From Herbaspirillum sp. YR522 (lineage in GTDB: Bacteria; Pseudomonadota; Gammaproteobacteria; Burkholderiales; Burkholderiaceae_D): a DNA stretch of 64,000 nucleotides. The translations under genes were made by a program, and so were the position numbers. The notes under the pieces were generated by a model. That model was given only the letters and a program-made list of their open reading frames with translations, was not told the DNA's origin and ran no database searches. Positions 29,695 to 62,818 of the stretch are shown here, one piece after another (position 1 is the first letter of the stretch; each line of letters starts with the position of its first letter). Location: the NCBI RefSeq assembly GCF_000282575.1, contig NZ_AKJA01000107.1, forward strand, positions 1-64,000, written 5' to 3'.

Positions 29695-29715
29695 GGACGC
29701 AGGCAAGCCAGCCAG

Positions 29716-29740
29716 ACCGCATCCCCGGATGCGGTTTTTT
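29716..29740 (+). terminator. Intrinsic terminator after the glycine-zipper gene
   Basis: ACCGCATC / GATGCGGT with a CCCG loop, followed by six T, 21 bp after the stop codon. Confidence 0.9.
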
Positions 29741-29785
29741 ATTGGCCGGGCGCGGCGCGCGGCGCACCATCGGGGGCGGCGATGC

Positions 29786-29791
29786 TATACT
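29786..29791 (+). promoter_or_regulatory. Possible -10 element for the trpS leader transcript
   Basis: TATACT lies 8 bp before the leader-peptide ATG. If it is used, transcription would begin at or within a base or two of that ATG, giving a leaderless leader peptide. The -35 match is poor, so another start is possible. Confidence 0.4.
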
Positions 29792-29798
29792 CGCGGCC

Positions 29799-29843
29799 AT
29801 GCTTTTTCGACCTGCACAATTTCAGCATTGGTGGCGCGCCTGA
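29799..29843 (+). CDS. trpS leader peptide with tandem Trp codons
   Basis: A 14-codon frame (MLFRPAQFQHWWRA) that ends 38 bp before a terminator hairpin and 112 bp before trpS. Trp is a rare residue, yet two UGG codons are adjacent at 29829-29834, close to the stop codon, as in attenuator leader peptides. Stalling of a ribosome at these codons when charged tRNA-Trp is scarce would leave the segment at 29848-29854 free to form the antiterminator. No classical ribosome-binding site precedes the ATG, and the nearest -10-like element would make the message leaderless. The function is inferred from sequence arrangement. Confidence 0.7.
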   Translation: MLFRPAQFQHWWRA

Positions 29844-29847
29844 CCCG

Positions 29848-29905
29848 GGCGGCCCGTTTTCACGCAGTTTGACAATGTGAGGCCGCCGGTTCCGGCGGCT
29901 TTTTT
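29848..29905 (+). promoter_or_regulatory. trpS attenuator (antiterminator / terminator switch)
   Basis: Segment 2 (GGCGGCC, 29848-29854) can pair perfectly with segment 3 (GGCCGCC, 29881-29887). Segment 3 also pairs with segment 4 (CCGGCGGC, 29892-29899) to make the terminator with its U-run. Segment 2 begins 5 bases after the leader stop codon, so a ribosome that finishes the peptide would cover it and allow termination, while a ribosome stalled at the Trp codons would not. This is the geometry of classical transcription attenuation. Confidence 0.7.
29882..29905 (+). terminator. Intrinsic terminator in the trpS leader
   Basis: GCCGCCGG (29882-29889) pairs with CCGGCGGC (29892-29899), followed by six T. 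The two-base loop means the top pair is probably open. It lies 50 bp upstream of trpS and would stop transcription before the gene. Confidence 0.85.
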
Positions 29906-29955
29906 GCGTCTGGACCCGGTGGCGTTCCAGATAATCGATACGACCAGGAATGACC

Positions 29956-31017
29956 ATGTCCCAGAACGACACGAATCCCCAAACCGAGCAGCCCGCATCG
30001 GGCGCGGCGGCCACCCGGCCGGTGGTACTCACCGGCGACCGTCCGACCGGCCCCCTGCACCTGGGCCATTACATCGGTTCGCTCAAGTCGCGCGTGGCAT
30101 TGCAGGAAACGGCGCAGCAGTTCCTGCTGCTGGCCGATACCCAGGCCATGACCGACAACGTCGGTCGCCACCAGAAAGTGACCGACAACGTCCTCGAAGT
30201 GGCGCTGGACTACCTGGCCGTAGGCATCGACCCCGACAAGACCACCATCTTCATCCAGTCGCAGGTACGCGAGCTCTATGAGCTGTCGATGGTGCTGCTC
30301 AACCTGGTGACGGTATCGCGCCTGGAGCGCAACCCCACCATCAAGGAAGAAATCCGCCTGCGCGGCTTCGAGCGCGATATCCCGGCCGGTTTCCTGACCT
30401 ATCCGGTCAGCCAGGCGGCCGATATCACGGCCTTCAAGGGCCAACTGGTGCCGGTCGGCAGCGACCAGTTGCCGATGATCGAGCAAACCAACGAGTTGGT
30501 GCGCAAGTTCAACGCCACCGTCGAGCGCGAGGTGCTGGTCGAGTGCAAGGAAGTGCTGTCGGACATGGCGCGCCTGCCCGGCATCGATGGCAAGGCGAAG
30601 ATGAGCAAGTCGCTGGGCAATGCGATACAGCTGGGCTCGAGCGCCGACGAGATCAAGCAGGCGGTACACCGCATGTACACCGACCCGAATCACCTGCGGG
30701 TGGCCGATCCGGGCCAGGTCGAAGGCAACGTGGTGTTCACCTTCCTGGACGCCTTCGATCCCGATCACGATGCGGTCGAGGAACTCAAGGCCCACTACCG
30801 CCGCGGTGGCCTGGGCGACAGCGTGGTCAAGCGCCGCCTGGAAGGCATCCTGCAGGAACTGATCGCACCGATCCGCGAGCGTCGCCAGCATTTTGCCCAG
30901 GACCGCGGCGAGGTGATGGCCATGCTCAAGCGCGGCACCGATCGCGCCAGCGCGGTGGCGGCCCAGACCATGTCCGAGGTCAACGCGGCACTGGGCCTGA
31001 ATTACTTCGGTCGCTGA
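29956..31017 (+). CDS. trpS: Tryptophanyl-tRNA synthetase
   Basis: 353-residue class I synthetase that charges tRNA-Trp. The HIGH-like motif is PLHLGHY near residue 35 and the KMSKS loop is present as [13 protein letters not shown] around residue 215. The ATG at 29956 is preferred to one six bases upstream because AGGA then has normal spacing. Length and order are typical of bacterial TrpRS. Its expression is probably controlled by the leader peptide and terminator just upstream, which sense the charging of tRNA-Trp, the product of the enzyme itself. Confidence 0.95.
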
Positions 31018-43570: not shown

Positions 43571-45383
43571 CGCGCTGCGCCCCGCGCAGGGCGTTGCAGA
43601 CGACGATCTGCTCGGCCCGCAGCAACTGGGCACGCGTGACGGTGGCCTCGACCGCGTTGTAGTGCGGGTCGGCCAGCAACACCGTGCGCATCACGCCGGG
43701 CAGCAGTCCTGCCGCCAAGGGCGGCGTGGTCCAACGGCCATCCAGCAGCACGAACACGTTGCAGCGGCCGCCCTCGGTCAGTTCATCCTTTTCGTTGAAG
43801 AACAGCAGGTCGAAGCCGCCGCGTGCCTCGGCGTCCTTCCAGGCGGCGTCGTAGAGGGCGCGCGCGCTGCTCTTGTAACGCAACAGCGGGTCACGGCTGT
43901 CGGTGGGTGCGGCCGCGAGGAACACCTTGAGCGGTTCGTCCAGCGGTGCCAGCGGCGCGTGCCGCAGGTCGATCGCGCCGTCGTCCGCCAGGTCCAGCCG
44001 CAGGCGATGCAAGCCGTCCGGCAGCACGCTGCAGGTCTGGTGCAACGCCGCGCGGATGGCGGCTTCATCGTAGACAAAGCCCAAGTCGGCGGCCGACGCG
44101 CGCAAGCGCGCCAGGTGCAAGTCGAGATGGCGTGCGCCATCGCGCGTGGCGCGGATGGTTTCGAACAGCGTGAAGTCGTGCCCCATCCCGGTCAGGAAGC
44201 GCGCCTTCAGGTTGCATTCGGCATATTCGGAATCGGCATCGCTGTCATGGACGATACCGGCCCCCAGGCCCAGCACGCCAGGCCGCATCCCCGCCTGCGG
44301 CGGCTGCAGTTGCAGCGTGCGGATCGGCACCGACAGGCAGAAGTCGCCGATGGCCCGGGACGTGCCGTGGGACGCCTCGAACCAGCCGATGGCGCCGGTA
44401 TAGAGTCCGCGCGGCGCGGTTTCGAGCTCGTCGATGATTTCCATGGTGCGGCGCTTGGGGGCCCCGGTGATCGAGCCGCAGGGATAGAGCGCGGCGACCA
44501 CCTCGGCCAGCGCGACGTCCGGTCGCAGGCGGGCGCGTATGGTCGAGGTCATCTGCAGCACCTGGCCATAGCGGCGCACGTCGAACAGCTTGGGCACCTG
44601 CACCGATCCCGGCACCGCTACCCGCCCCAGGTCGTTGCGCAGCAGGTCGACGATCATCAGGTTCTCTGCGCGGTTCTTGGCGTCGGCCGCCAGCTGCAAT
44701 GCCCGTTGCACATTGATTGCCTCGGCGTCGGCATGGTCGGCGTCGGCGGCGCGCGCGGTGCCTTTCATCGGCTTGGCCTTGAGCACGCCCTGGGTGTGCT
44801 GCACGAACAGCTCGGGCGAGAATGACAGGATCGCCGCGCCGTCCTCGCGGCACACCAATGCCCCGTACGGCACCGGCTGGCGCTGGCGCAGCCGTCGATA
44901 CAGGGCCAGCGGTTCGCCGTAGGCATCGAAATGCAGGCGATAGGTATAGTTGACCTGATAGGTGTGGCCGGCGGCGATGTAATCGCGGATACGGTCGATG
45001 GCGGCGCCGAACTGTTGCTGGCTGACGCTGGCCCGGAGCCGGGCCACGCCGGCCGGGCCCGTTGTCGTCGCCGCCTGCGTGGCCAGCCAGTCGTCGACCT
45101 GGGCTGCGGCCAGGCGCTCGCAGCGCCCGAACAACAGGATCTCGGCCAGGGGGCCGGCGCCATGGCGATGCGGCAGGCCCTGCATGGCCGCACCCAGTTC
45201 GTAGTGCCACAGGGCCACGGCGTGCAGGCCACTCGCCAGTGCCTGCTGCATCTGCTCCAGCATGGGCGCCAGGCCGGCGGCATCGTGGCAGGACAGGGTG
45301 CGCAGGTGCTGCGTGTAGAGCCGCGAGCGCGGCGCGGCGCGGGTGGCCAGGTGATCGTCGAGCAGGGCGAAGCAGAGGGTCAT
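43554..45383 (-). CDS. pabB: Fused aminodeoxychorismate synthase component I / aminodeoxychorismate lyase
   Basis: 609-residue fusion for p-aminobenzoate synthesis in the folate pathway. The N-terminal 370 residues are a PabB/TrpE-type chorismate-binding domain (YQVNYTYRLHF, FSPELFV, MKGTARA, CGSITGAPKRRTMEIID), which aminates chorismate with ammonia from a separate PabA. The C-terminal 230 residues are a PLP-dependent PabC-like lyase (TLFETIRATRDGARHLDLHL, then LTEGGRCNVFVLLDGRW), which releases pyruvate. The ATG at 45383 (MTLCFALLDDH) matches such fusions; one at 45446 would add 21 residues. No PabA gene is in the window. Confidence 0.9.
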   Translation of the reverse strand: MTLCFALLDDHLATRAAPRSRLYTQHLRTLSCHDAAGLAPMLEQMQQALASGLHAVALWHYELGAAMQGLPHRHGAGPLAEILLFGRCERLAAAQVDDWLATQAATTTGPAGVARLRASVSQQQFGAAIDRIRDYIAAGHTYQVNYTYRLHFDAYGEPLALYRRLRQRQPVPYGALVCREDGAAILSFSPELFVQHTQGVLKAKPMKGTARAADADHADAEAINVQRALQLAADAKNRAENLMIVDLLRNDLGRVAVPGSVQVPKLFDVRRYGQVLQMTSTIRARLRPDVALAEVVAALYPCGSITGAPKRRTMEIIDELETAPRGLYTGAIGWFEASHGTSRAIGDFCLSVPIRTLQLQPPQAGMRPGVLGLGAGIVHDSDADSEYAECNLKARFLTGMGHDFTLFETIRATRDGARHLDLHLARLRASAADLGFVYDEAAIRAALHQTCSVLPDGLHRLRLDLADDGAIDLRHAPLAPLDEPLKVFLAAAPTDSRDPLLRYKSSARALYDAAWKDAEARGGFDLLFFNEKDELTEGGRCNVFVLLDGRWTTPPLAAGLLPGVMRTVLLADPHYNAVEATVTRAQLLRAEQIVVCNALRGAQRAILAP

Positions 45384-62742: not shown

Positions 62743-62818
62743 GTGGCTGTAGCTCAGTTGGTAGAGTCCAGGATTGTGATTCCTGTTGTCGCGGGTTCGA
62801 GTCCCGTCAGCCACCCCA
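62743..62818 (+). tRNA. tRNA-His (anticodon GTG)
   Basis: 76-base cloverleaf with acceptor arms GTGGCTG / CAGCCAC, T-arm CGGGTTCGAGTCCCG, anticodon GTG at 62776-62778 and encoded 3' CCA. The base before the gene is G and the discriminator is C, as required for the G-1:C73 pair of bacterial tRNA-His. It stands alone, with no other tRNA in the window. Confidence 0.97.

Follow-up and report, generated by a model that had tools for sequence, protein, structure and literature searches.

The trpS gene of Herbaspirillum sp. YR522 is preceded by a short reading frame with two adjacent Trp codons and by an intrinsic terminator, which raises the question of whether the production of this tryptophanyl-tRNA synthetase (TrpRS) is tuned to the supply of charged tRNA-Trp. 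We addressed this question in a stretch of 64,000 nucleotides of contig NZ_AKJA01000107.1 (hereafter, the window). From the sequence and its comparison with relatives we conclude, with a probability of about 0.87, that the segment acts as a transcription attenuator of the ribosome-mediated kind, through which a type II TrpRS would be produced in response to a scarcity of charged tRNA-Trp. Ribosome-mediated attenuation of trpS had been proposed in a first-pass annotation of this DNA, and the comparison of Trp codons, hairpin and spacing makes it very likely: in the aligned sequences these three parts of the attenuator, the spacing being that from the codons to strand 2, are conserved. To that annotation our analysis adds a type II TrpRS standing beside another TrpRS, a probable leaderless leader and a third conserved pairing further downstream. 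The features are collected in Table 1.

Table 1. Elements of the trpS leader region, in window coordinates.
Feature	Position	Strand	Basis or remark
Terminator of the upstream gene	29714..29737	+	Pattern scan
Extended -10 element TGcTATACT	29783..29791	+	Sequence; transcription start predicted at ~29798-29799
Leader ORF MLFRPAQFQHWWRA (followed by a stop codon)	29799..29843	+	Read from the sequence; putative translation from a leaderless transcript
Two adjacent Trp codons, the candidate control codons	29829..29834	+	Sequence and conservation
Strand 2, GGCGGCC, 5' strand of the predicted antiterminator	29848..29854	+	13 nt past the second Trp codon
Intrinsic terminator, hairpin and U-run (29900-29905)	29880..29905	+	Folding, covariation
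Strand 3, spanning the 5' arm of the terminator and its loop	29881..29893	+	May pair with strand 2, 4 or 5
Strand 5, complementary to strand 3 or, alternatively, to the trpS ribosome-binding site	29912..29928	+	Covariation tests
Strand 6, trpS Shine-Dalgarno (SD) sequence AGGA (29946-29949) and start codon (29956)	29946..29958	+	Sequence, pairing
trpS, encoding a type II tryptophanyl-tRNA synthetase of 353 aa that is free of Trp	29956..31017	+	

The product of trpS scores above the cut-off of NCBIfam TIGR00233 (trpS). The solved structures closest to it are 1yi8 and 2a4m (406 and 401 bits, the next different enzyme scoring 235), which we take to be TrpRS II of Deinococcus radiodurans; by sequence, the product is a type II TrpRS of that kind. 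The same genome encodes, on another contig, a type I TrpRS of 399 aa that is about 40% identical to the type II enzyme, which rules out the window trpS as the only TrpRS of the genome. An even draw of 145 genomes of the family yielded some TrpRS match in 144 and the window's type, counted at a sequence identity of at least 54%, in 71. When these 71 genomes were searched with the 399-aa enzyme, 40 proved to have both types (one of them with type I in two pieces), 30 type II only and one a decayed type I, so that the idea of a type II gene that is always auxiliary could be discarded on the strength of the 30 genomes without a detected type I. The type II enzymes of 110 loci, which were drawn from two collections and in which some species occur twice, contain no Trp in 106 cases and one Trp in 4; the type I enzyme of the window's genome contains seven. 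Synthesis of the type II enzyme, which is (almost) Trp-free, is possible even during a shortage of Trp-tRNA, and such a product fits a gene that needs to be translated under Trp-tRNA scarcity.

The 14-codon frame with its adjacent Trp codons agrees base for base with its earlier description (ATG CTT TTT CGA CCT GCA CAA TTT CAG CAT TGG TGG CGC GCC TGA). A model of 88 positions, derived from 41 leaders including the window's own, scores 76.5 bits at the locus, and its best other match within the window reaches 13.7 bits; model R1 retains row L051 of alignment A2, which had been shortened by a wrong first coordinate. A scan of the whole window against Rfam release 15 at the gathering score returned no Trp leader, T-box or other leader-family match, the sole match being a tRNA at 62743-62815.

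Is this frame kept in relatives? Among the best 80 named relatives, 65 have a WW leader frame upstream of trpS, taken as an ATG frame of 8-30 codons that contains WW and lies no more than 330 nt upstream. In the 71 family genomes our script detected 37 WW and 5 single-W leaders with a GCCGCC hairpin (42 together), to which inspection by eye added three with WW (G139, G018, G019) and two with one W (G119, G132), giving 47 of 71; by script and eye, 24 of the 71 have no Trp leader. The adjacent Trp codons are thus conserved, as the first-pass annotation had expected from an alignment of relatives, and on grounds of conservation a chance ORF in front of an unrelated terminator was rejected. The script-detected leaders are found in 23 of the 40 genomes with type I and in 19 of the 31 without it, the decayed case being counted among the latter. 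A U-run of at least 5 T in 8 is present in 22 of the 23 leader-bearing genomes with both types and in 11 of the 19 with type II only, and G056 and G091 have 4 T in 8 at this position. For the comparisons below, the 110 loci were reduced to 94 with a GCCGCC hairpin and these to 62 nonredundant ones; the set of 48 leaders is the nonredundant part of 56 that have a WW frame, the GCCGCC hairpin and ordinary spacing.

Several lineages depart from this pattern. Seven loci of a Janthinobacterium-like genus (g6; L021, L023-L028) have the WW leader and the hairpin, with GTAACAGG (1 T in 8) replacing the U-run, and no type I TrpRS was detected in these seven genomes. Four Undibacterium-like genomes (G085, G104, G063 and G032; loci L181, L183, L187 and L190) have the GCCGCC hairpin and a U-run before trpS and lack the Trp leader frame. 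Seven of the 65 leaders of named relatives, from Chromobacterium, Aquitalea, Vogesella and Silvimonas (L075, L080, L090, L092, L096, L097 and L107), are different, with an AACCCGG-type hairpin and, in four of the seven, WWW; these are possibly an independent attenuator.

A terminator-like hairpin closes the upstream gene, and a separate promoter for the leader is therefore probable. In 30 of the 48 nonredundant leaders an exact TATACT is found 6-8 nt upstream of the leader ATG, and 12 of the remaining 18 (Massilia, Duganella, Janthinobacterium and allies) carry TGCAACCAT at the -10 position; a pattern scan found no full sigma-70 match at the leader of the window, the -35 element being poor. 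None of the 48 leaders has an SD-like 4-mer upstream of its ATG. As predicted from the -10 position, transcription probably starts at the leader ATG or one base upstream of it, and for this reason the ribosome would load onto the very 5' end of the RNA; the simplest reading is that the leader transcript is likely leaderless. Leaderless mRNAs have been reported in Burkholderia cenocepacia and Cupriavidus metallidurans, although, in the portions available, neither text covers trpS or attenuation.

The 5' arm of the terminator, GGCCGCC, occupies 29881-29887, and the hairpin extends to 29901. The complementarity of this arm to GGCGGCC at 29848-29854 was recovered as first claimed, both in coordinates and in pairing. 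The terminator in front of trpS likewise lies where it had been placed. As a correction, the gene probably starts at 29956, AGGA being suitably placed for the ATG there and not for the one at 29950. In isolation, the terminator folds with -16.4 kcal/mol (2 of 200 shuffles are as good), and positions 29845-29893 fold as the antiterminator with -19.2 kcal/mol (13 of 200). In the minimum-energy fold of 29799-29905 the end of the leader pairs with strand 2, which would give a putative 1:2 protector hairpin. A consensus pattern scan of the window did not list the terminator at 29880-29905, probably because the T-run was counted into the stem.

Compensatory change had been anticipated in both helices. 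It is found in the terminator, at the two outer pairs, but the antiterminator helix is nearly invariant, and since strand 2 and the terminator 5' arm hardly vary, the 2:3 pairing gives no covariation. In the terminator, 98.8% of the pair cells are paired and 16 are changed on both sides, either value being reached by none of 500 shuffles; the number of pairs with a both-side change (two) was reached by 20 of 500 shuffles and that of further pair types (five) by 104 of 500. The 2:3 helix itself has 5-8 pairs, and shuffled spacers give helices that are little shorter (mean 4.7). What argues for the antiterminator helix in the aligned sequences is conservation together with a constant distance from the Trp codons. 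Strand 2, for which we took the longest stretch complementary to strand 3, starts 11-16 nt past the second Trp codon in all 48 leaders (13 nt in 27 and 15 nt in 16), and strands 2 and 3 are separated by 25 to 43 nt. Even in the 6 of 48 leaders in which the stop codon lies beyond strand 2, the spacing from the codons to strand 2 is still constant. Such a near-constant distance is what a stalled-ribosome switch would require, and it fits the suggestion that strand 2 would be under a ribosome at the stop codon and clear of one at the Trp codons.

The attenuator would work as follows. When Trp-tRNA is short, the ribosome would stall at the two Trp codons and leave strand 2 free; strand 2 would then pair with strand 3, no terminator would form and transcription would continue into trpS. 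When Trp-tRNA is plentiful, the ribosome would reach the stop codon and cover strand 2, upon which strands 3 and 4 would form the terminator and the transcript would be expected to end near 29905.

Other readings of the segment have to be weighed against this one. TnaC is an arrest peptide that acts by sensing in the exit tunnel, and the trpS leader could similarly sense free tryptophan or a drug there, in which case WWRA would matter as a peptide and not as codons. While a C-terminal WWRA or WWRR is indeed well kept within groups, the end of the leader varies from group to group (WWRA, WWRR, WWSR, WWLR, WWRP, WWWRL, FWWRSP), the residues before WW are variable, 6 of the 48 leaders continue past strand 2 and the constant spacing is counted from the Trp codons, all of which makes an arrest peptide very improbable. 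Least probable of the alternatives is that the hairpin is a plain intergenic terminator or a constitutive leader hairpin, with the WW frame incidental: the upstream gene is already closed by a separate terminator, and WW, spacing and promoter position are conserved across genera, even though many relatives have interrupted U-runs and the pattern scan missed the terminator of the window.

That control is mainly translational or Rho-dependent and does not operate through intrinsic termination is a reading to which 7 of the 71 family genomes, having leader and hairpin without a U-run, lend some substance, as does strand 5, which covaries with strand 3 and, on weaker grounds, also with the ribosome-binding site (RBS). 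Against it stands the U-run of the window and of most leaders, and we consider it unlikely. Ribosome-mediated transcription attenuation remains our preferred reading, to which strand 5 may add a further layer, as discussed below.

The module is used more widely. A model search of 300 genomes of the order gave a match in 39 at E 0.001; of 21 loci inspected, 11 resemble ordinary terminators and the other 10 are trpS, TrpRS-like or transporter leaders, as are 8 of a second set of 10 loci. Other families of the order, too, have this module in front of trpS. In L124/L158, L134 and L135 a Trp leader, the hairpin and strand 5 are found before a transporter of the sodium:neurotransmitter symporter family, which is possibly a tryptophan importer; the transporter leaders end in GWWRA or GYWRA. 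Five loci from another family of the order (L142, L154, L156, L157 and L126) have the same hairpin before TrpRS-like proteins of 285-298 aa, in which the HIGH region is altered to PLSLGQ, PLSLGH or PLGLGH and inspection by eye found no KMSKS. One such protein, when scanned, matched TrpRS profiles in their C-terminal part only, and two gave no Pfam match; the leaders of these loci finish with FWYRSY and one more residue, that of L126 with FYWWYRT. As for other Trp loci, trpE of the window's genome (L117, 1142-1228) has an upstream frame of its own, MFRNNKRTAQHTAAPEAWLWRRWQFQAQ and a stop codon, which contains three Trp and is unlike the trpS leader. Within the window, 44199-45065 on the minus strand gives a second, partial trpE-family match below the cut-off (216 of 517.7 bits) and is perhaps a pabB-like gene.

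Downstream of the U-run lies a further strand, complementary to both the 5' arm and the loop of the terminator, which follows the lineage-specific changes of the loop: CCGGTTCC is accompanied by GGRACCGG in Herbaspirillum, CCAGCCAT by ATGGCTGG in Burkholderia and CCTCGATT by GATCGAGG in Massilia. In the window, 29882-29889 can pair with 29916-29923, beyond which one mismatch is followed by three further pairs. When partners were permuted among six loop classes, the own pairing was the best of 720 arrangements and the own partner was the best in 4 of 6 rows (48 loci in six named classes, with 9 miscellaneous loci excluded and 5 of the 62 dropped for odd spacing or a wrong hairpin). Permutation over 56 loci (six of the 62 dropped) gave a score of 853 versus 676 (sd 21; 0 of 1000), and with one locus per distinct loop (24 loops) it gave 343 versus 280 (sd 12; 0 of 2000), while paired bases in the loop numbered 88 versus 74 (2 of 2000); since the sequences are related, these counts are not strict probabilities. 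Against shuffled versions of strand 5, pairing with arm and loop together reaches the 5% level in 33 of 55 loci, and pairing with the loop part in 24 of them.

The same relation holds in further loci, which were found with a model that covers leader and terminator only. These were picked for a Trp leader and for the downstream gene, before strand 5 was formally scored and after several had been inspected by eye; the hairpin of L131 and the gene starts of L131, L152, L154 and L157 were chosen by hand. Thirteen of the 18 leaders were used, the near relatives L119 and L120, the short L134, the near copy L150 and the duplicate L158 being excluded. The score was 233 versus 177 in the 13 loci (sd 11; 0 of 5000) and 192 versus 146 in their 11 distinct loops (sd 10; 0 of 5000). 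Taken together, the comparisons make a conserved third pairing, 3:5, well supported. In equilibrium folds from strand 3 to the gene (58 loci), the mean modelled probability is 0.76 for 3:4 versus 0.21 for 3:5; in the window, a longer stretch folds into 3:4 (0.99) and a shorter one into 3:5.

Strand 5 is also complementary to the trpS SD or start codon (5:6), and support for this pairing is weaker than for 3:5, the tests of 5:6 disagreeing with one another. The class permutation of 5:6 and the shuffle comparisons of both pairings dropped 7 of the 62 loci (the same five and two in which the chosen start is too close), and the class permutation again left out the 9 miscellaneous ones. In the latter, the own pairing was once more the best of 720, but the own partner was the best in only 2 of 6 rows. 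While 19 of 55 loci reach the 5% level against shuffles and a permutation over 56 loci gave 0 of 1000, the test with one locus per distinct loop and an ungapped score was not significant (224 of 2000). Scored by duplex energy, 5:6 gave 0 of 2000 on 34 combined loci and 2 of 2000 on 11 new distinct-loop loci, which is not a clean repeat because the score was changed between the tests. The similarity of the terminator loop to the RBS was significant with related sequences included (0 of 2000, n=55) and not significant with one locus per distinct loop (153 of 2000 at n=34, 99 of 2000 at n=11). At a threshold of 0.05, modelled opening of the RBS in the antiterminated state goes up in 12 of 48 loci, down in 1 and is unchanged in 35, the window among them; the mean is 0.44 versus 0.38.

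A translational switch is nevertheless plausible, because full pairing of strand 5 with strand 3 excludes full pairing with the RBS. In such a second tier, strand 2, by holding strand 3, would expose the terminator loop as a toehold for strand 5; strand 5 would take strand 3, and the RBS of trpS would stay open. In transcripts that leak past the terminator, the loop would be closed, strand 5 would sit on the RBS and the mRNA would be silent. We offer as a tentative proposal, with the odds somewhat against it, that the module is a two-tier attenuator in which strand 5 reads the transcription decision and gates translation, and which is shared by TrpRS II, a sodium-coupled transporter and a degenerate TrpRS-like protein.

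As an idea, attenuation of trpS is not new, and the Burkholderiales case is a variant and not a new class. The first-pass annotation knew of no description of it in this group of bacteria. Among the top matches in the open-access literature, to which the search extended, we found no report of a trpS attenuator in the Burkholderiales. In 2010 Vecchione and Sello reportedly described trpRS1 of S. coelicolor as an auxiliary TrpRS that resists antibiotics and is controlled by ribosome-mediated attenuation. This type is a second trpS beside a housekeeping one, as is also the case in the genome of the window; unlike such an auxiliary gene, the window-type gene occurs in 30 of 71 family genomes without a detectable type I. 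Further Streptomyces trpS attenuators, including that of S. avermitilis trpS2, have been predicted (PMC1262725), and S. lividans trpL2, with the frame MMTRTCTQLWRAA and a stop codon, is listed as an attenuator from RNA-Seq (PMC8079986). Going by the descriptions in the available parts of these two texts, they resemble the window in having a Trp leader peptide before trpS. In contrast to the window, trpL2 has one Trp, with no uridine-rich stretch found after the frame according to the part of the source at hand (PMC8079986), and Streptomyces belongs to the Actinobacteria, unlike Herbaspirillum.

Other systems share some traits with the window, as described in those parts of the sources that were available. 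Ribosome profiling indicated a putative small leader CDS for trpS of the alphaproteobacterium Caulobacter crescentus, a likeness by description, with no trpS switch described in the text available (PMC4117421). The trpLE(G) attenuator of Sinorhizobium meliloti has a 14-aa leader peptide with Trp codons, and its attenuator RNA begins with the ATG of that peptide; it shares with the window the 14-aa Trp leader and the frame at the RNA 5' end, predicted in the window, but, unlike the window, it controls trpE(G) and not trpS, and the excerpt mentions no strand 5 (PMC7298713). In the Bacillus subtilis vmlR leader, a terminator/antiterminator is combined with an SD-sequestering hairpin that would be disrupted by read-through pairing, which, by description, makes for two tiers as proposed for the window; in contrast to the window, vmlR senses antibiotics through a three-codon frame and belongs to a Firmicute (PMC9226507). 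Finally, the nearest solved relative of the window's enzyme, D. radiodurans TrpRS II, is connected with nitration and NOS in a review, as far as its available text goes (PMC9437257).

The Trp attenuator described here is widespread in these Betaproteobacteria and recognisable from sequence, and its target would be the charging enzyme and not the biosynthetic pathway. For some species of the lineage, this enzyme is the only TrpRS detected. If strand 5 works as proposed, it would provide a translational fail-safe for amino-acid attenuators, similar to that of B. subtilis vmlR.
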